A DNA stretch of 33,108 nucleotides from Candidatus Hydrothermota bacterium (lineage in GTDB: Bacteria; Hydrothermota; Hydrothermia; B15-G9; DRBW01), in contig JAGGUL010000113.1 of the NCBI GenBank assembly GCA_021158525.1, forward strand, positions 1 to 33,108, read 5' to 3'. This document shows positions 3 through 8,338 of this stretch, piece by piece. Within the stretch, counting starts at the first letter, position 1, and each line of letters opens with the position of its first letter. The notes beneath the pieces were generated by a model, which had not been told where the DNA came from, did not search any database, and saw only the letters and a list, made by a program, of their open reading frames with translations. The position numbers were made by a program, and so were the translations under genes.

Positions 3-791
3 ATGAGGCCGGCCAAAGCCTACCCGGGCAACCCGCTCAATTACAGGGACGACATAGACCTGGTGATCTTCAGGGAGAACACCGAGGGAATGTACGCCGG
101 CGTGGAATTCTATCCCCTCCCCGACGAGGTGAGGGAGGTGCTCCTCAAGCACCATCCCAAGATGGCCAGGTTCAAGGATGTGCCTGCCGATGAGATAGCC
201 ATCTCCACCAGGATAATGACGAAGAAGGGCTGCGAGAGAATAGCAAAGGCCGCCTTCGAATACGCCCGTAAAACCGGAAGAAAATCGGTGACCGTCGTCG
301 AGAAACCCAACGTTCTGAGGGAAACGGGCGGCCTTATGCTCAAGGTCACGAGGAGCCTGAATGAAAAATATCCGGAAATCGAGTACATGGAGGCGAACGT
401 CGACGCCATGGCGATGTGGCTCGTGAAGAACCCCGAGAGGTACGACGTGCTCGTGGCCGAAAACCTCTTCGGCGACATAATCTCAGACCTTGCGGCGCAG
501 CTCGTGGGCGGTCTGGGCTTCGCCTCGGCGGGCAATATAGGAGACAATTACGCCGTCTTCGAGCCCACCCACGGCTCAGCTCCCAAGTATGCCGGACAGT
601 ACAAGGTCAACCCGATGGCGATGCTGCTCGCCACCAAGATGATGCTGGAGTGGCTCGGTGAGAAGGAGATGGCCGACAACCTGGAAAAGGCCATCGCCGA
701 TGTCATAAAGGAAGGAAAGGTCAGGACCTACGACATGGGAGGCGACGCCTCCACGCTGGACGTCGCTCGCGCTGTGGCAGAACGGCTCTGA
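3..791 (+). CDS. icd: Isocitrate dehydrogenase-type enzyme, 5' truncated
   Basis: This is the C-terminal 262 residues of a beta-decarboxylating dehydrogenase of the isocitrate/isopropylmalate family. The gene runs off the left edge. The ATG at base 3 is almost certainly internal, because family members have roughly 80-150 more N-terminal residues, including the glycine-rich start. FRENTEGMYAG (about residues 23-33) holds the substrate-binding arginine region. NLFGDIISDLAAQ carries the metal-binding aspartates. FEPTHGSAPKYAGQ closely matches the coenzyme loop of isocitrate dehydrogenases rather than isopropylmalate dehydrogenases. Its Lys-Tyr pair is the one associated with NADP preference in the E. 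coli enzyme, but the second determinant, an arginine after TYD, is glycine here, so cofactor choice is open. The expected reaction is oxidative decarboxylation of isocitrate to 2-oxoglutarate, or its reverse in a reductive cycle. A strong terminator follows the stop. Homoisocitrate or isopropylmalate specificity cannot be fully excluded. Confidence 0.88.
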   Translation: MRPAKAYPGNPLNYRDDIDLVIFRENTEGMYAGVEFYPLPDEVREVLLKHHPKMARFKDVPADEIAISTRIMTKKGCERIAKAAFEYARKTGRKSVTVVEKPNVLRETGGLMLKVTRSLNEKYPEIEYMEANVDAMAMWLVKNPERYDVLVAENLFGDIISDLAAQLVGGLGFASAGNIGDNYAVFEPTHGSAPKYAGQYKVNPMAMLLATKMMLEWLGEKEMADNLEKAIADVIKEGKVRTYDMGGDASTLDVARAVAERL

Positions 792-963: not shown

Positions 964-993
964 TTGACAAAATGAGAAAGATGGTTTTAGAAT
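964..993 (+). promoter_or_regulatory. Sigma-70-type promoter of the small SPW-like gene
   Basis: TTGACA at 964-969 is a perfect -35. It is followed by an 18-nt spacer and TAGAAT at 988-993 (5 of 6 matches to the -10 consensus). The predicted start of transcription is near base 1000, giving a leader of about 35 nt with an AAAGGGGG ribosome-binding site. Confidence 0.65.
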
Positions 994-996
994 TAG

Positions 997-1238
997 AAAA
1001 GGGCGCTGGAGAACGGAGAAAGGGGGTATAAGCTATGTGGCAAAACTGGATAAACTTCATCATCGGGATAATTATTTTTATCGCAGCGCTTGCCAAGGTT
1101 GAAGCGAACTGGATCTATTGGTTAGGTGGAATAATCGTAGCCATTCTTGCCCTCTGGGGCGGCCTTTCCAAGAAGTAGTTTGATTTCCTCCTCAGGGGGG
1201 AGATCGAAAATATCTCTAAATCTCTCCAGCGCCCTTTT
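997..1238. repeat. 16-bp perfect inverted repeat flanking the small membrane-protein gene
   Basis: The left arm AAAAGGGCGCTGGAGA (997-1012) is matched by its exact reverse complement at 1223-1238, followed by one more T. The arms enclose the 47-codon gene at 1035-1178. The left arm begins where the mRNA is predicted to start and the right arm lies 45 nt past the stop, so the transcript could fold into a closed loop by pairing its ends. No target-site duplication is visible next to the arms, so a transposable-element origin is not supported by the sequence alone. Confidence 0.7.
1035..1178 (+). CDS. 47-residue two-helix membrane protein, SPW-repeat-like
   Basis: The product begins MWQNWINFIIGI, contains a polar turn around KVEANW, then a second hydrophobic stretch WLGGIIVAILALW, and ends with two lysines. 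Two short transmembrane helices with tryptophans at their edges, and a W-x-x-W-[IL]-N opening, resemble the SPW repeat family of small bacterial membrane proteins, in which this unit often occurs once or twice. The family's function is not established. The start is supported by GAGAAAGGGGG about 9 nt upstream and by a good promoter at 964-993. The gene stands alone between the terminator at 813-847 and the convergent protease gene ending at 1291. It is enclosed by a 16-bp inverted repeat. That it is a real gene is likely; the family assignment rests only on pattern likeness. Confidence 0.72.
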   Translation: MWQNWINFIIGIIIFIAALAKVEANWIYWLGGIIVAILALWGGLSKK

Positions 1239-1290
1239 TCTATGGGTAGAAAGGTGAGTTGTCTCCCTCTATTTCTGAACTTTTACGGTT

Positions 1291-4200: not shown

Positions 4201-4623
4201 TTCGAAGTACTTTTTGTCGTGAGGAGGATCGTAGTACATGTTGTACACGCTGTCCCTGCATGAGGTCGTGTCGAACATTGGCTCTCCGTTGGACGTTAGC
4301 CTCATCTTTCCGTTCCCAGTGGTCCTGGGATCGTCCGGATCTTCCTCGACAAACTCCACTCTGATGGCCAGGATCCTGATAACTATGGTATCGTTCTGCA
4401 TTATTCTCGCGTTGTCCCCTACCTCTCTCAGGGTGGGAATATCCAGCGGGTTATAAAGGCGCCAGTATGGTAACATCCGCCTTTTCACTTCCAGGCTTTT
4501 CTCCACAACTTTTCTTTTCCAAAGCGCATCGTCTGGCCCCCGATTGGGCCTCCTTATGGGAACCTTCACGGCCAGAAGCGGCACTCCTATAAACAGCAGA
4601 AAAAAGATTTTCCAGGACTTCAT
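1291..4623 (-). CDS. Secreted M6-type metalloprotease with FG-GAP repeats and T9SS sorting domain
   Basis: The 1110-residue product starts with a signal peptide (MKSWKIFFLLFIGVPLLAV). The catalytic part is M6 (immune inhibitor A)-like: HENMH at 305-309, PDLYD at 315-319 and a Met-turn-like WGIMATG near 330-336. The zinc motif is unusual. Family members have HExxHxxGxPD, but here the glycine is Phe and one extra residue precedes the Asp. A calcium-loop-like DFDDLDGNG lies near 211-219. The second half has about six FG-GAP/VCBS-type motifs such as GDIDGDG and SDLDGDGD, typical of beta-propellers. The last 85 or so residues (YLYPNPTRTG ... LPSGVYFIRV) form a T9SS type A sorting domain, so the protein is expected to be exported and then released or anchored at the surface. 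AAGGAGGT lies 8 nt before the ATG, and a near-perfect promoter lies 141 nt upstream. Activity on proteins is inferred from the family. Confidence 0.93.
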   Translation of the reverse strand: MKSWKIFFLLFIGVPLLAVKVPIRRPNRGPDDALWKRKVVEKSLEVKRRMLPYWRLYNPLDIPTLREVGDNARIMQNDTIVIRILAIRVEFVEEDPDDPRTTGNGKMRLTSNGEPMFDTTSCRDSVYNMYYDPPHDKKYFEHLMEAYSNYIKVATFGKVRIEWVVKPDDDTLSYQLPHPMVYYGDPDNYDYGLVYLVRDAFKAADEDSTIDFDDLDGNGIRDPQEGVLDRYVVFHAGSAWQTDIMNDTPYDIAAVTVMPGNFMYYLGYPYVLANDGTDTLWGASVMPEEMSQDGVESRLQGVLFHENMHNLFYFPDLYDTYGHGAGIGAWGIMATGPYVGIPGSIPEGLIPPLPNAWERTWIDWNLRYIWGEHAGFLNENILATLEPGPSPESLTVKPASILTDSLLRFLEDPYSAPRFYKVPINGHEYFLVENKLDNLPQNDSVLCDTDTVYIYGEWKDGIFVHFYGENDYLLPGKGLLIWHVDEDILWNNYSYNTCNAVRPMAVDLLEADHVQDLERWTDFSPYLYAWFGCPYDAYFEGNNTLACDTTMPSTRDNYGGETGLTFFEISAPGTLMTFKVKREQVQAGFPQRLGYSYVKIEYGTFEFDITHEPAALFAQPFEGGIAVLENVIVDTVRFDYQTGEEDTIAVDTLMEVHIIGPDGRCLFGDTIRNRGLFLGGPLVVDLNSDDTLELLTGSTEGRLYAWSIKFYSPDSVELTAFPGFPLSMPDQIRAALSAADIDGDGLKEILVPCEDQKLHVVRSDGTEYFEVMAGAPGRTTPAWADSLIFYLSADGRLFVISPSGEVLTTVGEPYVIESTGSPAVGDIDRDGSIEALVPRSDGFFTCYDLNGIEKWTRRTRKGAVSSAAIGDIDGDGYGEAFFVSASYLYGFNHTGSLLSGYPIELAPDTVLVSSPVLGDVDGDGQVEVVLSVSRRGVLAFDGEGHRVEFEKNFPGGAQYPPSFSDLDGDGDIELIVGDSTGFLSAWDLNSTRAEWISFGNGPQHNSFWAPVGNAPTTEGKFNVNRIYLYPNPTRTGVSWLRFRASSPSGLHVGVYTFAGERVAQFDFQAQGGDFEDKELDLSDLPSGVYFIRVKFERENKPHILKLAITR

Positions 4624-4932
4624 CTAAGAGACCTCCTTATTTTCTTATGGGGAAGGACAGAATTTGACATCTTCACCATTATCGGACCGCCATCGCCCCC
4701 TTCACGGATAAAAGGATATCAATCCACAAAATAATCACTTCCTTTCTCGAATTTCAAATTTTCATTATAAGGTCTACAAAAGGGGGCGTCAATCAGCGAT
4801 CTTCTGTGTCTCCGAAAGGTTCCTTCCGAATATTGAGGAGAACCCTCCGTTGTCGGACCCCAGATTCAGACCGGGGATATTCGGGAAAAGGTTCCCCATT
4901 AAATCACAAAATCGTAGACGTCCCGAAAAAGT
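4624..4932. other. 309-bp intergenic region with long 5' leader of the protease gene
   Basis: No open frame with a start and ribosome-binding site was found here on either strand. The minus strand carries the protease promoter (4764-4792) and an untranslated leader of about 134 nt ending in AAGGAGGTCTCTTAG before the ATG. The leader matched no riboswitch consensus I could recall. Between the promoter and the stop of the 338-residue gene there is only a weak imperfect inverted repeat around CGAATAT/ATATTCG with a long loop and no U-tract, so no clear terminator for that upstream gene is visible. Confidence 0.6.
4764..4792 (-). promoter_or_regulatory. Near-perfect sigma-70 promoter of the M6 protease gene
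   Basis: Read on the minus strand: TTGACG (4792-4787), a 17-nt spacer, then TATAAT (4769-4764). Eleven of twelve hexamer positions match consensus with ideal spacing. The predicted transcription start is near 4757. Confidence 0.82.
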
Positions 4933-7447: not shown

Positions 7448-8338
7448 TTAAACCCTCCATTTCCAGTAGGGCTCACTGGTGAAGAGCCCCAGAAAATCTT
7501 TCAGAGCGAGGGATAGAAGATAGAAAGAGAGTCCCAGGTCGAGGATCACCCTTCCCGCCAGGGAAAGCTTCTGGTGCTTAGAAATGAACCTCCTGGCAGA
7601 ACGGGCTTTTTCCCATTCAGTGCGAAACCGCAGTTTTTTTCTGCTCATCCCGTGATAGTGAATGACCTTCGCTCCCCTGTGAAGGTAGACCTTCCAGCCG
7701 GCATCCCAGAGCCTTTTGCAGAAATCGAGGTCCTCGCCGAAGAAGAAAAATCCTTCGTCGAGCAGTCCAACTCCCTCCAGGGCCTCTCTTCTGAGGAACA
7801 TAAAGGTGCCCAGTATGGACTCCACCTCCATAGGCGACTCATCATCGGCCACTATGTTCTTGTAGAGAAATTCGGAGCTGAGGGGATTTCGGGGGAATAG
7901 CTTCGTCAGGAAGGACCTCCTCCCGGAGAGAAGGTATTTCAGCCTGGGAAACCTCCTAGCCGAGTCCTGGGGCGTGAAGTCCGGATACAGGAGCTGGGGA
8001 GAAACTGCACCGGCCTCGGGGTTTTTCTCCATGAAGTCGACCAGCCTGTCAACGGTATCGGCAAAAAGCACCGTATCGGGATTTACGAGGGCGATGTAAT
8101 CTCCCCTCGCCATCCTTAGCCCCTGATTCACAGCTCCTGCAAAGCCCCTGTTTCTCCTGTTTCGAATGAGCTTGACCCGCCTGAACCTGTCGAGAATCGA
8201 CGTATCCTCACGGGAGGCATTGTCGATAATGATTATTTCATCCCCCTCCTCCAGGCGCAACGATTGCAGTGAGCATAGAAGCAGCTGCGTGGAATTATAG
8301 TTCACGTATATGAAGGAAACAGAAGGCCTTTTTCCCAC
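7448..8338 (-). CDS. Family 2 glycosyltransferase, rhamnosyltransferase-like
   Basis: The 296-residue product has a GT-A fold opening (SFIYVNYNS at about 8-16), IIIIDNASRED (about 35-45), NRGFAGAVNQGL, and LVNPDTVL, whose Asp is the usual nucleotide-sugar/metal site. FFFGEDLDFCKRL gives the catalytic ED pair common in dTDP-rhamnose-type GT2 enzymes. A hydrophobic C-terminal segment (LSLAGRVILDLGLSFYLLSLAL) may sit on or in the inner membrane. It probably adds the next sugar to the lipid-linked intermediate made by the adjacent transferase, with which it forms a two-gene operon. The start is a GTG with no Shine-Dalgarno. A promoter places its -10 box 8 nt before it, so the mRNA may be leaderless. 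Donor and acceptor sugars are unknown. Confidence 0.9.
   Translation of the reverse strand: MGKRPSVSFIYVNYNSTQLLLCSLQSLRLEEGDEIIIIDNASREDTSILDRFRRVKLIRNRRNRGFAGAVNQGLRMARGDYIALVNPDTVLFADTVDRLVDFMEKNPEAGAVSPQLLYPDFTPQDSARRFPRLKYLLSGRRSFLTKLFPRNPLSSEFLYKNIVADDESPMEVESILGTFMFLRREALEGVGLLDEGFFFFGEDLDFCKRLWDAGWKVYLHRGAKVIHYHGMSRKKLRFRTEWEKARSARRFISKHQKLSLAGRVILDLGLSFYLLSLALKDFLGLFTSEPYWKWRV

Follow-up and report, generated by a model that had tools for sequence, protein, structure and literature searches.

A gene of 47 codons in the window (the whole stretch of DNA analyzed, 33,108 nt from a Candidatus Hydrothermota genome) is enclosed by a perfect inverted repeat through which the two ends of its predicted mRNA can pair, and homologs in three related genomes are enclosed by helices of other sequence. 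It is probable, and well supported, that part of this gene family has been selected for closure of the RNA by its ends: pairing in four genomes of three families, with different arm sequences, is rather direct evidence for selection on closure of the mRNA. The arms are present, they lie at promoter-like starts in two of the loci, and pairing is kept with changed letters. As to what closure achieves, we tentatively favor, at a little under an even chance, an mRNA that would protect its ends by closing, as is reported for the hbs mRNA.

The window makes up contig 45 of a genome assembly of 2.0 Mb (G000; 129 contigs, 97% complete), whose relatives go by the name candidate division WOR-3 or Candidatus Hydrothermota. 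The small gene sits between a gene for a dehydrogenase of the isocitrate/isopropylmalate type and a convergent metalloprotease-like gene (both names read from translations). The initial annotation described a 47-codon gene with its own promoter and ribosome-binding site, and all these elements are present on the forward strand: an ORF with an ATG start (1035..1178), the ribosome-binding site AGGGGG, read in the sequence 8 nt before the start (1021..1026), and a sigma-70-type promoter-like site, TTGACA-18-TAGAAT (964..993), which is a consensus match only, with 11 of 12 positions agreeing. The hydrophobic 47-residue product is, judging from its sequence, probably a two-helix membrane protein. 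Between G000 and a second genome of the same genus (G001), 34 of 46 residues are identical, and the differences between the genes fall as 10, 7, and 25 at the first, second, and third codon positions, which points to selection on the protein and thus to a real gene. Its description as SPW-like stands as a resemblance, but a weak one: the window protein scores 18.3 bits against Pfam SPW (PF03779) and 20.7 bits against DUF4383, below the respective cut-offs of 31.5 and 27, and SPW is matched at E <= 0.01 in three of nine family members. In G004, G006, and G008, the small gene does not come after the isocitrate dehydrogenase-type genes. The dehydrogenase gene of the window (3-791) has a second copy at the end of another contig (G000:C115:45-830), encoding a 97% identical protein; this copy is perhaps a strain variant or the outcome of an assembly break.

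The two arms, AAAAGGGCGCTGGAGA where the mRNA is predicted to begin (997..1012, forward strand) and its exact reverse complement past the stop codon (1223..1238, forward strand), are 16 nt long, 100% complementary, and 210 nt apart, just as the 16-bp perfect inverted repeat had been reported. When positions 990-1250 were folded, a check proposed with the initial annotation, the energy was -90.1 kcal/mol versus -74.6 +/- 4.7 for 200 shuffles (z = -3.3), none of which was as low, and the enclosing helix appeared in both the minimum-energy and the centroid folds. The predicted pairing of the left arm is 0.95 per nt at 37 C. Both folds also hold a local hairpin just 3' of the stop codon (1179..1208, forward strand, borders counted by hand), with 13 pairs including wobbles and no T-run. 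The left arm begins at the fourth base after the -10 box. Transcription usually starts at +7 after the -10, here at about 1000; the placement of the arm at the predicted start therefore holds approximately, the usual start lying 3 nt inside the arm. The right arm had been placed 45 nt past the stop and before TTTTT-rich sequence; it lies 44 nt after the stop, and the T-run is there (T1239, C, and T follow the arm). Of 327 promoter-like sites sampled from G000, that of the small gene comes with the longest arm pair. An Rfam search of positions 700-1500 returned two matches, both far below their gathering scores.

A profile of the gene family matched 10 of 147 genomes of the phylum at E <= 1e-5 and 12 of 40 genomes of the class at E <= 1e-3, some of these hits being partial or weak; a pattern scan of 84,980 species genomes, a collection that may lack the record of the window itself, found 11 loci, 8 of them in WOR-3/Hydrothermota. 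Inspection of all 10 phylum loci (E <= 1e-5) with 150-nt flanks revealed a flank-to-flank helix around the gene in four: G000, G001, G034, and G019. The uninterrupted pairs number 16, 16, 13, and 11, respectively, with 9 more past a bulge in G019, and the loops measure 210, 208, 210, and 201 nt, though the length of the gene and of each spacer varies; this near-constancy of the loop is only suggestive. The neighboring genes differ among all four loci, which come from three families, and the arm sequences are largely different: AAAAGGGCGCTGGAGA in G000, ATGCTCGAGGCCGGGG in G001, GAGGGCGCCGGTA in G034, and GCACCGGGG..GGGGAGAGGCC in G019. Covariation of the arms, which the initial annotation had suggested looking for, is seen between G000 and G034, where 13 pairs aligned by eye comprise 9 unchanged, 4 changed on both sides, and none broken. 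The other arm pairs could not be aligned, and there the pairing was either replaced as a whole or gained independently. In G000, G001, and G034, the predicted arm pairing per nt is 0.94-0.99 for 37 C and, for 60 C, 0.92-0.97; in G019, the first 24 nt pair with the last 70 at 0.3-1.0 by base, except for a TT bulge. Since pairing is kept with different arm letters, selection appears to act on the pairing of the RNA ends, and the original suggestion that the mRNA could close on itself gains from the three relatives with enclosing helices of their own.

The position of the arms relative to promoters varies. In G034, the left arm begins at the ninth base after the -10 of a 12/12 promoter-like site, and with transcript starts assumed, pairing begins at nt 1-2 in G000 and nt 3 in G034. 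G019 has TTGACA followed after 17 nt by a -10, TAATCT, that matches only 3/6. In G001, no promoter-like site precedes the arm, and one 9/12 site overlaps the start codon; here the left arm coincides with the final codons of a TetR-like gene lying upstream, and the right arm directly precedes the ribosome site of the gene that follows, so that G001 shows no evident free 5' end. The remaining six loci keep the gene and lack the arms, which the initial annotation had named as a finding that would tell against it; the helix is therefore not obligatory. No more than 9 exact pairs span the gene at these loci, and no more than 8 at six weaker homologs. Of the six loci without a helix, three (G002, G006, and G008, family f2) combine a short leader with a local hairpin after the stop, of 10, 18, and 18 pairs; in two (G003 and G005), the gene lies closely 3' of a phosphoglycerate kinase-like gene (name read from translation); G009 is the sixth.

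The claim that a 16-bp match would hardly arise by chance was examined against mechanically called ORFs of at least 150 aa, a set that is not all genes, by taking for each the longest exact helix that its two 100-nt flanks can form. The maxima were 11 in 333 ORFs of G000, 10 in 326 of G001, 11 in 299 of G034, and 11 in 408 of G019, i.e., no helix of more than 11 exact pairs among 1,366 ORFs sampled from the four genomes. The value of 16 at the window locus thus bears the claim out, and the value of the respective small gene was reached by no ORF in G000, G001, or G034 and by one of the 408 in G019. A loose helix score, for which the samples hold the locus itself, was equaled by 11 of 5,244 windows in G000, 6 of 6,147 in G034, and 98 of 5,905 in G019; because it separates the loci poorly in the GC-rich G019, a stricter score was added along with the ORF-flank count. 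With their own flanks, the four loci have strict scores of 41 (G000), 44 (G001), 36 (G034), and 31 (G019), versus 15-23 in five of the six loci without a helix (G009 was not scored) and at most 31 in 72 swapped flank pairs. Sample windows scoring as high numbered 14 of 14,428 in G000 (11 from a dispersed repeat and 3 being the locus itself), 1 of 13,214 in G001 (whose locus lies outside the sample), 8 of 16,917 in G034 (3 the locus itself, 4 from one contig end, and 1 other), and 116 of 16,254 in G019, with the locus in the sample. Hence, G000, G001, and G034 stand out from the null; G019 is weak on its own and stands out only once its second stretch and its position are taken into account. 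When promoter-like sites in samples of G000, G034, and G019 were tested for an arm of at least 10 near the start, the arm of the small gene of G034 ranked second in length among 1,050 sites, exceeded by an AT-rich 14-mer whose loop is 513 nt, and the site of G019 was absent from the 179 tested because its -10 matches only 3/6; mirrored-letter controls reached 10, 13, and 10.

The layout was also sought at other genes in samples of the four genomes; of the hits, 10 high-scoring windows and two further pairs were inspected, and these proved to be dispersed repeats, sequence rich in repeats or at contig ends, or pairs inside ORFs. As a separate observation, an inverted pair, CAGGGACCTCGACAGG, of 16 nt and 434 nt apart, occurs at L068:18677-19142 in G000, inside a 458-aa ORF, and at L130:10481-10946 in G001.

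The explanation that we favor would run as follows. A short mRNA of about 240 nt, with ends as predicted, would be made from the small gene; its first transcribed bases would pair with the stretch after the stop codon in a helix of 13-20 pairs, and the coding region would lie in the resulting loop of some 200-210 nt. Such a helix would hide the 5' end and seal the 3' side from exonucleases, and only the full-length message would be protected, with translation still possible. The closed mRNA would amount to a long-range form of the known 5'-terminal stabilizing stem, with the mechanism reported for hbs as its nearest counterpart. RNase E/G had no match over the cut-off in 40 genomes; weak hits occur in 17, the majority in frames around 700 codons long, and we take these hits to be S1 domains. 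RNase J scored below its cut-off in G000, the one genome to which this result refers. The known 5'-end-sensing nucleases may be absent from these genomes, in which case protection, if real, would be directed against another nuclease, e.g., RNase Y, as for hbs. Base-paired 5' ends resist RNase E and RppH, according to PMC3997798.

Control of translation by fold-back, as in the type I toxins hok and AapA, is rather unlikely, but it is the most probable of the alternatives. Here, the closed full-length mRNA would be silent until trimmed at its 3' end, and an antisense RNA would hold it in check. A small hydrophobic protein encoded by an mRNA with 5'-3' end pairing is common to these systems and the present gene, and its patchy occurrence at differing sites would suit such a role; according to PMC6733600 and PMC4147584, the hok and AapA3 mRNAs have a comparable layout (PMC3868564 is cited alongside these, PMC3997798, and PMC7821165). 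The ribosome site lies outside the arms here, and, in a difference from hok/AapA, folding without the 3' arm does not make it consistently more open, be it at 37 or at 60 C. At 37 C, its predicted openness in the closed form and in the form lacking the 3' arm is 0.35 and 0.35 in G000, 0.20 and 0.28 in G001, 0.52 and 0.41 in G034, and 0.34 and 0.26 in G019; the corresponding values for the start region are 0.41 and 0.40, 0.28 and 0.43, 0.53 and 0.25, and 0.30 and 0.26. Thus, in the folding predictions, masking of the translation start by the 3' end has no common direction in the four loci, and only G001, where the start region opens on loss of the 3' arm, leans toward it; within the limits of folding programs, this argues against repression by masking as a common trait. 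A further difference from hok/AapA is that an antisense RNA is hinted at only by weak promoter-like sites. Every one of the four helix loci has such a site (at least 9/12), as against none of five other loci scanned, which would rather suit fold-back control; the sites differ in place, however, from close to the start to within the gene or past its end, and were noticed after the fact. At least one occurs in 51 (G000), 36 (G001), 137 (G034), and 27 (G019) of 200 shuffled segments; each is ordinary alone and all four together would be unusual, in a comparison likewise made after the fact. The site of G034 (10/12) is situated just beyond the right arm. The three relatives with a short leader and no helix, and the lack of a match in a defense library, also speak against fold-back control.

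A second competitor of protection, the reading we favor, concerns the 3' side of the message, and we consider it unlikely. In a split intrinsic terminator, the leader-trailer helix and a T-run would together release the RNA polymerase, with the coding region as the loop. The right arm of G000 runs straight into TTTTTCT, and that of G034 is followed by TTTAAATTTTG; in G000, a scan finds no other sense terminator-like site 3' of the gene up to position 1340, and the f2 relatives have an ordinary hairpin in the same place. More broadly, the scan detects no sense terminator-like site on the 3' side of the gene in the four helix loci, and apart from the arms, none of these has a local exact inverted repeat of at least 8 right after the stop; the scan misses the evident hairpin of L052, making its negatives weak. 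The trailing arm, whose partner is at the 5' end, may accordingly take the place of the usual 3' hairpin. Given its T-run, the helix of G000 could act as a split terminator, but G001 and G019 do not fit, no T-run following the arm in either (ACCAAATATG and CTCGTGATCC, respectively). Moreover, an intrinsic terminator has a hairpin with a short loop before its T-run; the loop here is of 210 nt and would have to close during the pause of the polymerase with ribosomes on it.

Processing by an RNase III-type enzyme, with the stem as the site at which the small mRNA is freed from longer transcripts, as in pre-rRNA, is very unlikely. The setting of G001 would suit it, since the gene lies there between two same-strand genes with the arms at its borders. 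The RNase III domain (PF00636) is unmatched in all 10 genomes of the order, in G034 and G019, and in each of the 12 class genomes in which the gene is matched, and TIGR02191 finds none in G000; processing by RNase III was rejected on these grounds, with a dsRNA nuclease of another kind still conceivable. PF00636 does match in 12 of the 40 class genomes, all lacking the small gene, and in 8 of 14 controls. As one control found by TIGR02191 escaped the Pfam search, and as the genomes of the order together with G034 and G019 have a completeness of 80-97%, absence of RNase III is not proven; and because the RNase III-bearing and gene-bearing sets also separate by family, their mutual exclusion is a remark rather than a test. 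Across the class, the domain is unmatched in 28 of 40 genomes, several of them more than 95% complete, and its matches are confined to families f4 and f9.

That the helices reflect chance, or operator sites acting at the DNA level, is highly improbable: six of 10 loci lacking a helix would agree with either, but the ORF-flank null opposes chance, and the differing arm letters would be unexpected for sites of one binding protein. Equally improbable is the short non-autonomous mobile element with terminal inverted repeats that had been put forward as the other reading of the repeat; it would account for the differing neighbors of the loci read (except G003 and G005, which have common neighbors), but the copy search suggested with it finds the exact 16-mer in G000 only at the two arms, the genome has one good copy of the gene (the next match has E 0.09), the arm letters are largely not common to the genomes, and no direct repeats lie beside the arms (by eye), so that a MITE, too, was rejected for want of multiple copies with the same terminal repeats and of a target duplication. 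No relatives of the gene were found in viral contigs, phages, or plasmids. Allowing up to two mismatches, the 16-mer has 14 sites in G000, versus 4 for the pattern read backwards: one, with a single mismatch, has no partner listed on its contig, and two on contig 60 face each other, 81% complementary and 577 nt apart, inside two ORFs and enclosing no gene. A true dispersed element of this genome has other ends. This repeat, of about 290 bp, is bounded on either side by a palindrome of 35 bp, GGGGTCGGGTCGTGCA-nnn-TGCACGACCCGACCCC (e.g., L067:322-610, 4399-4690, and 7789-8082, on contig 7); 9 near-full copies, the query included, are among its 71 hits, many of the remainder being end palindromes paired about 256 bp apart, and it looks like a MITE or a REPIN-like element.

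Protection by closure, the explanation we favor, has precedents among bacterial mRNAs. Braun et al. reportedly described the 5'/3'-UTR interaction of the Bacillus subtilis hbs mRNA in 2017. PMC7821165, a review, gives the hbs pairing as 14 nt long and protective against RNase Y, describes 5'-3' UTR pairing for a few bacterial mRNAs, and states that several functional 3' UTRs, including that of hbs, are not conserved in close relatives. Both hbs and the present gene have a short leader-trailer pairing within one mRNA, and complementarity of leader and trailer beyond chance, as expected of hbs-like protective pairing, is found here with transcript ends as predicted. Unlike hbs, the gene encodes another protein in another phylum, the arm lies at the predicted transcript start, and relatives show the pairing again in other letters. 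In the literature, as judged by titles and the beginnings of abstracts, we found no paper on the gene family or on such an mRNA in the phylum. Closure is a variant of the known 5'-3' UTR pairing, not a new kind. What might set it apart is a design specific to this gene, in which only complete messages are protected, the loop is held at about 200-210 nt, and both arms are replaced wholesale with pairing kept, in bacteria with no matched RNase III or full RNase E/G; this is possible, though we lean against it. The gene offers a small, clonable test case of whether closing an mRNA protects it, in genomes in which RNase III, an enzyme expected to cut a helix of this kind, is unmatched. In Staphylococcus aureus icaR, the 3' UTR likewise pairs with its own 5' UTR, but it does so over the Shine-Dalgarno sequence, and RNase III cleaves the mRNA. 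Masking of the icaR type was rejected for two reasons: the arm of the present gene stops short of the ribosome site, and a search for RNase III domains gave no match. In the 5' stems of ompA and papA, the partner adjoins in the leader. These stem-loops are 5'-terminal and stabilizing, going by titles cited in PMC3997798. They share a base-paired 5' end with the present mRNA, in which the partner of that end lies instead after the stop codon.
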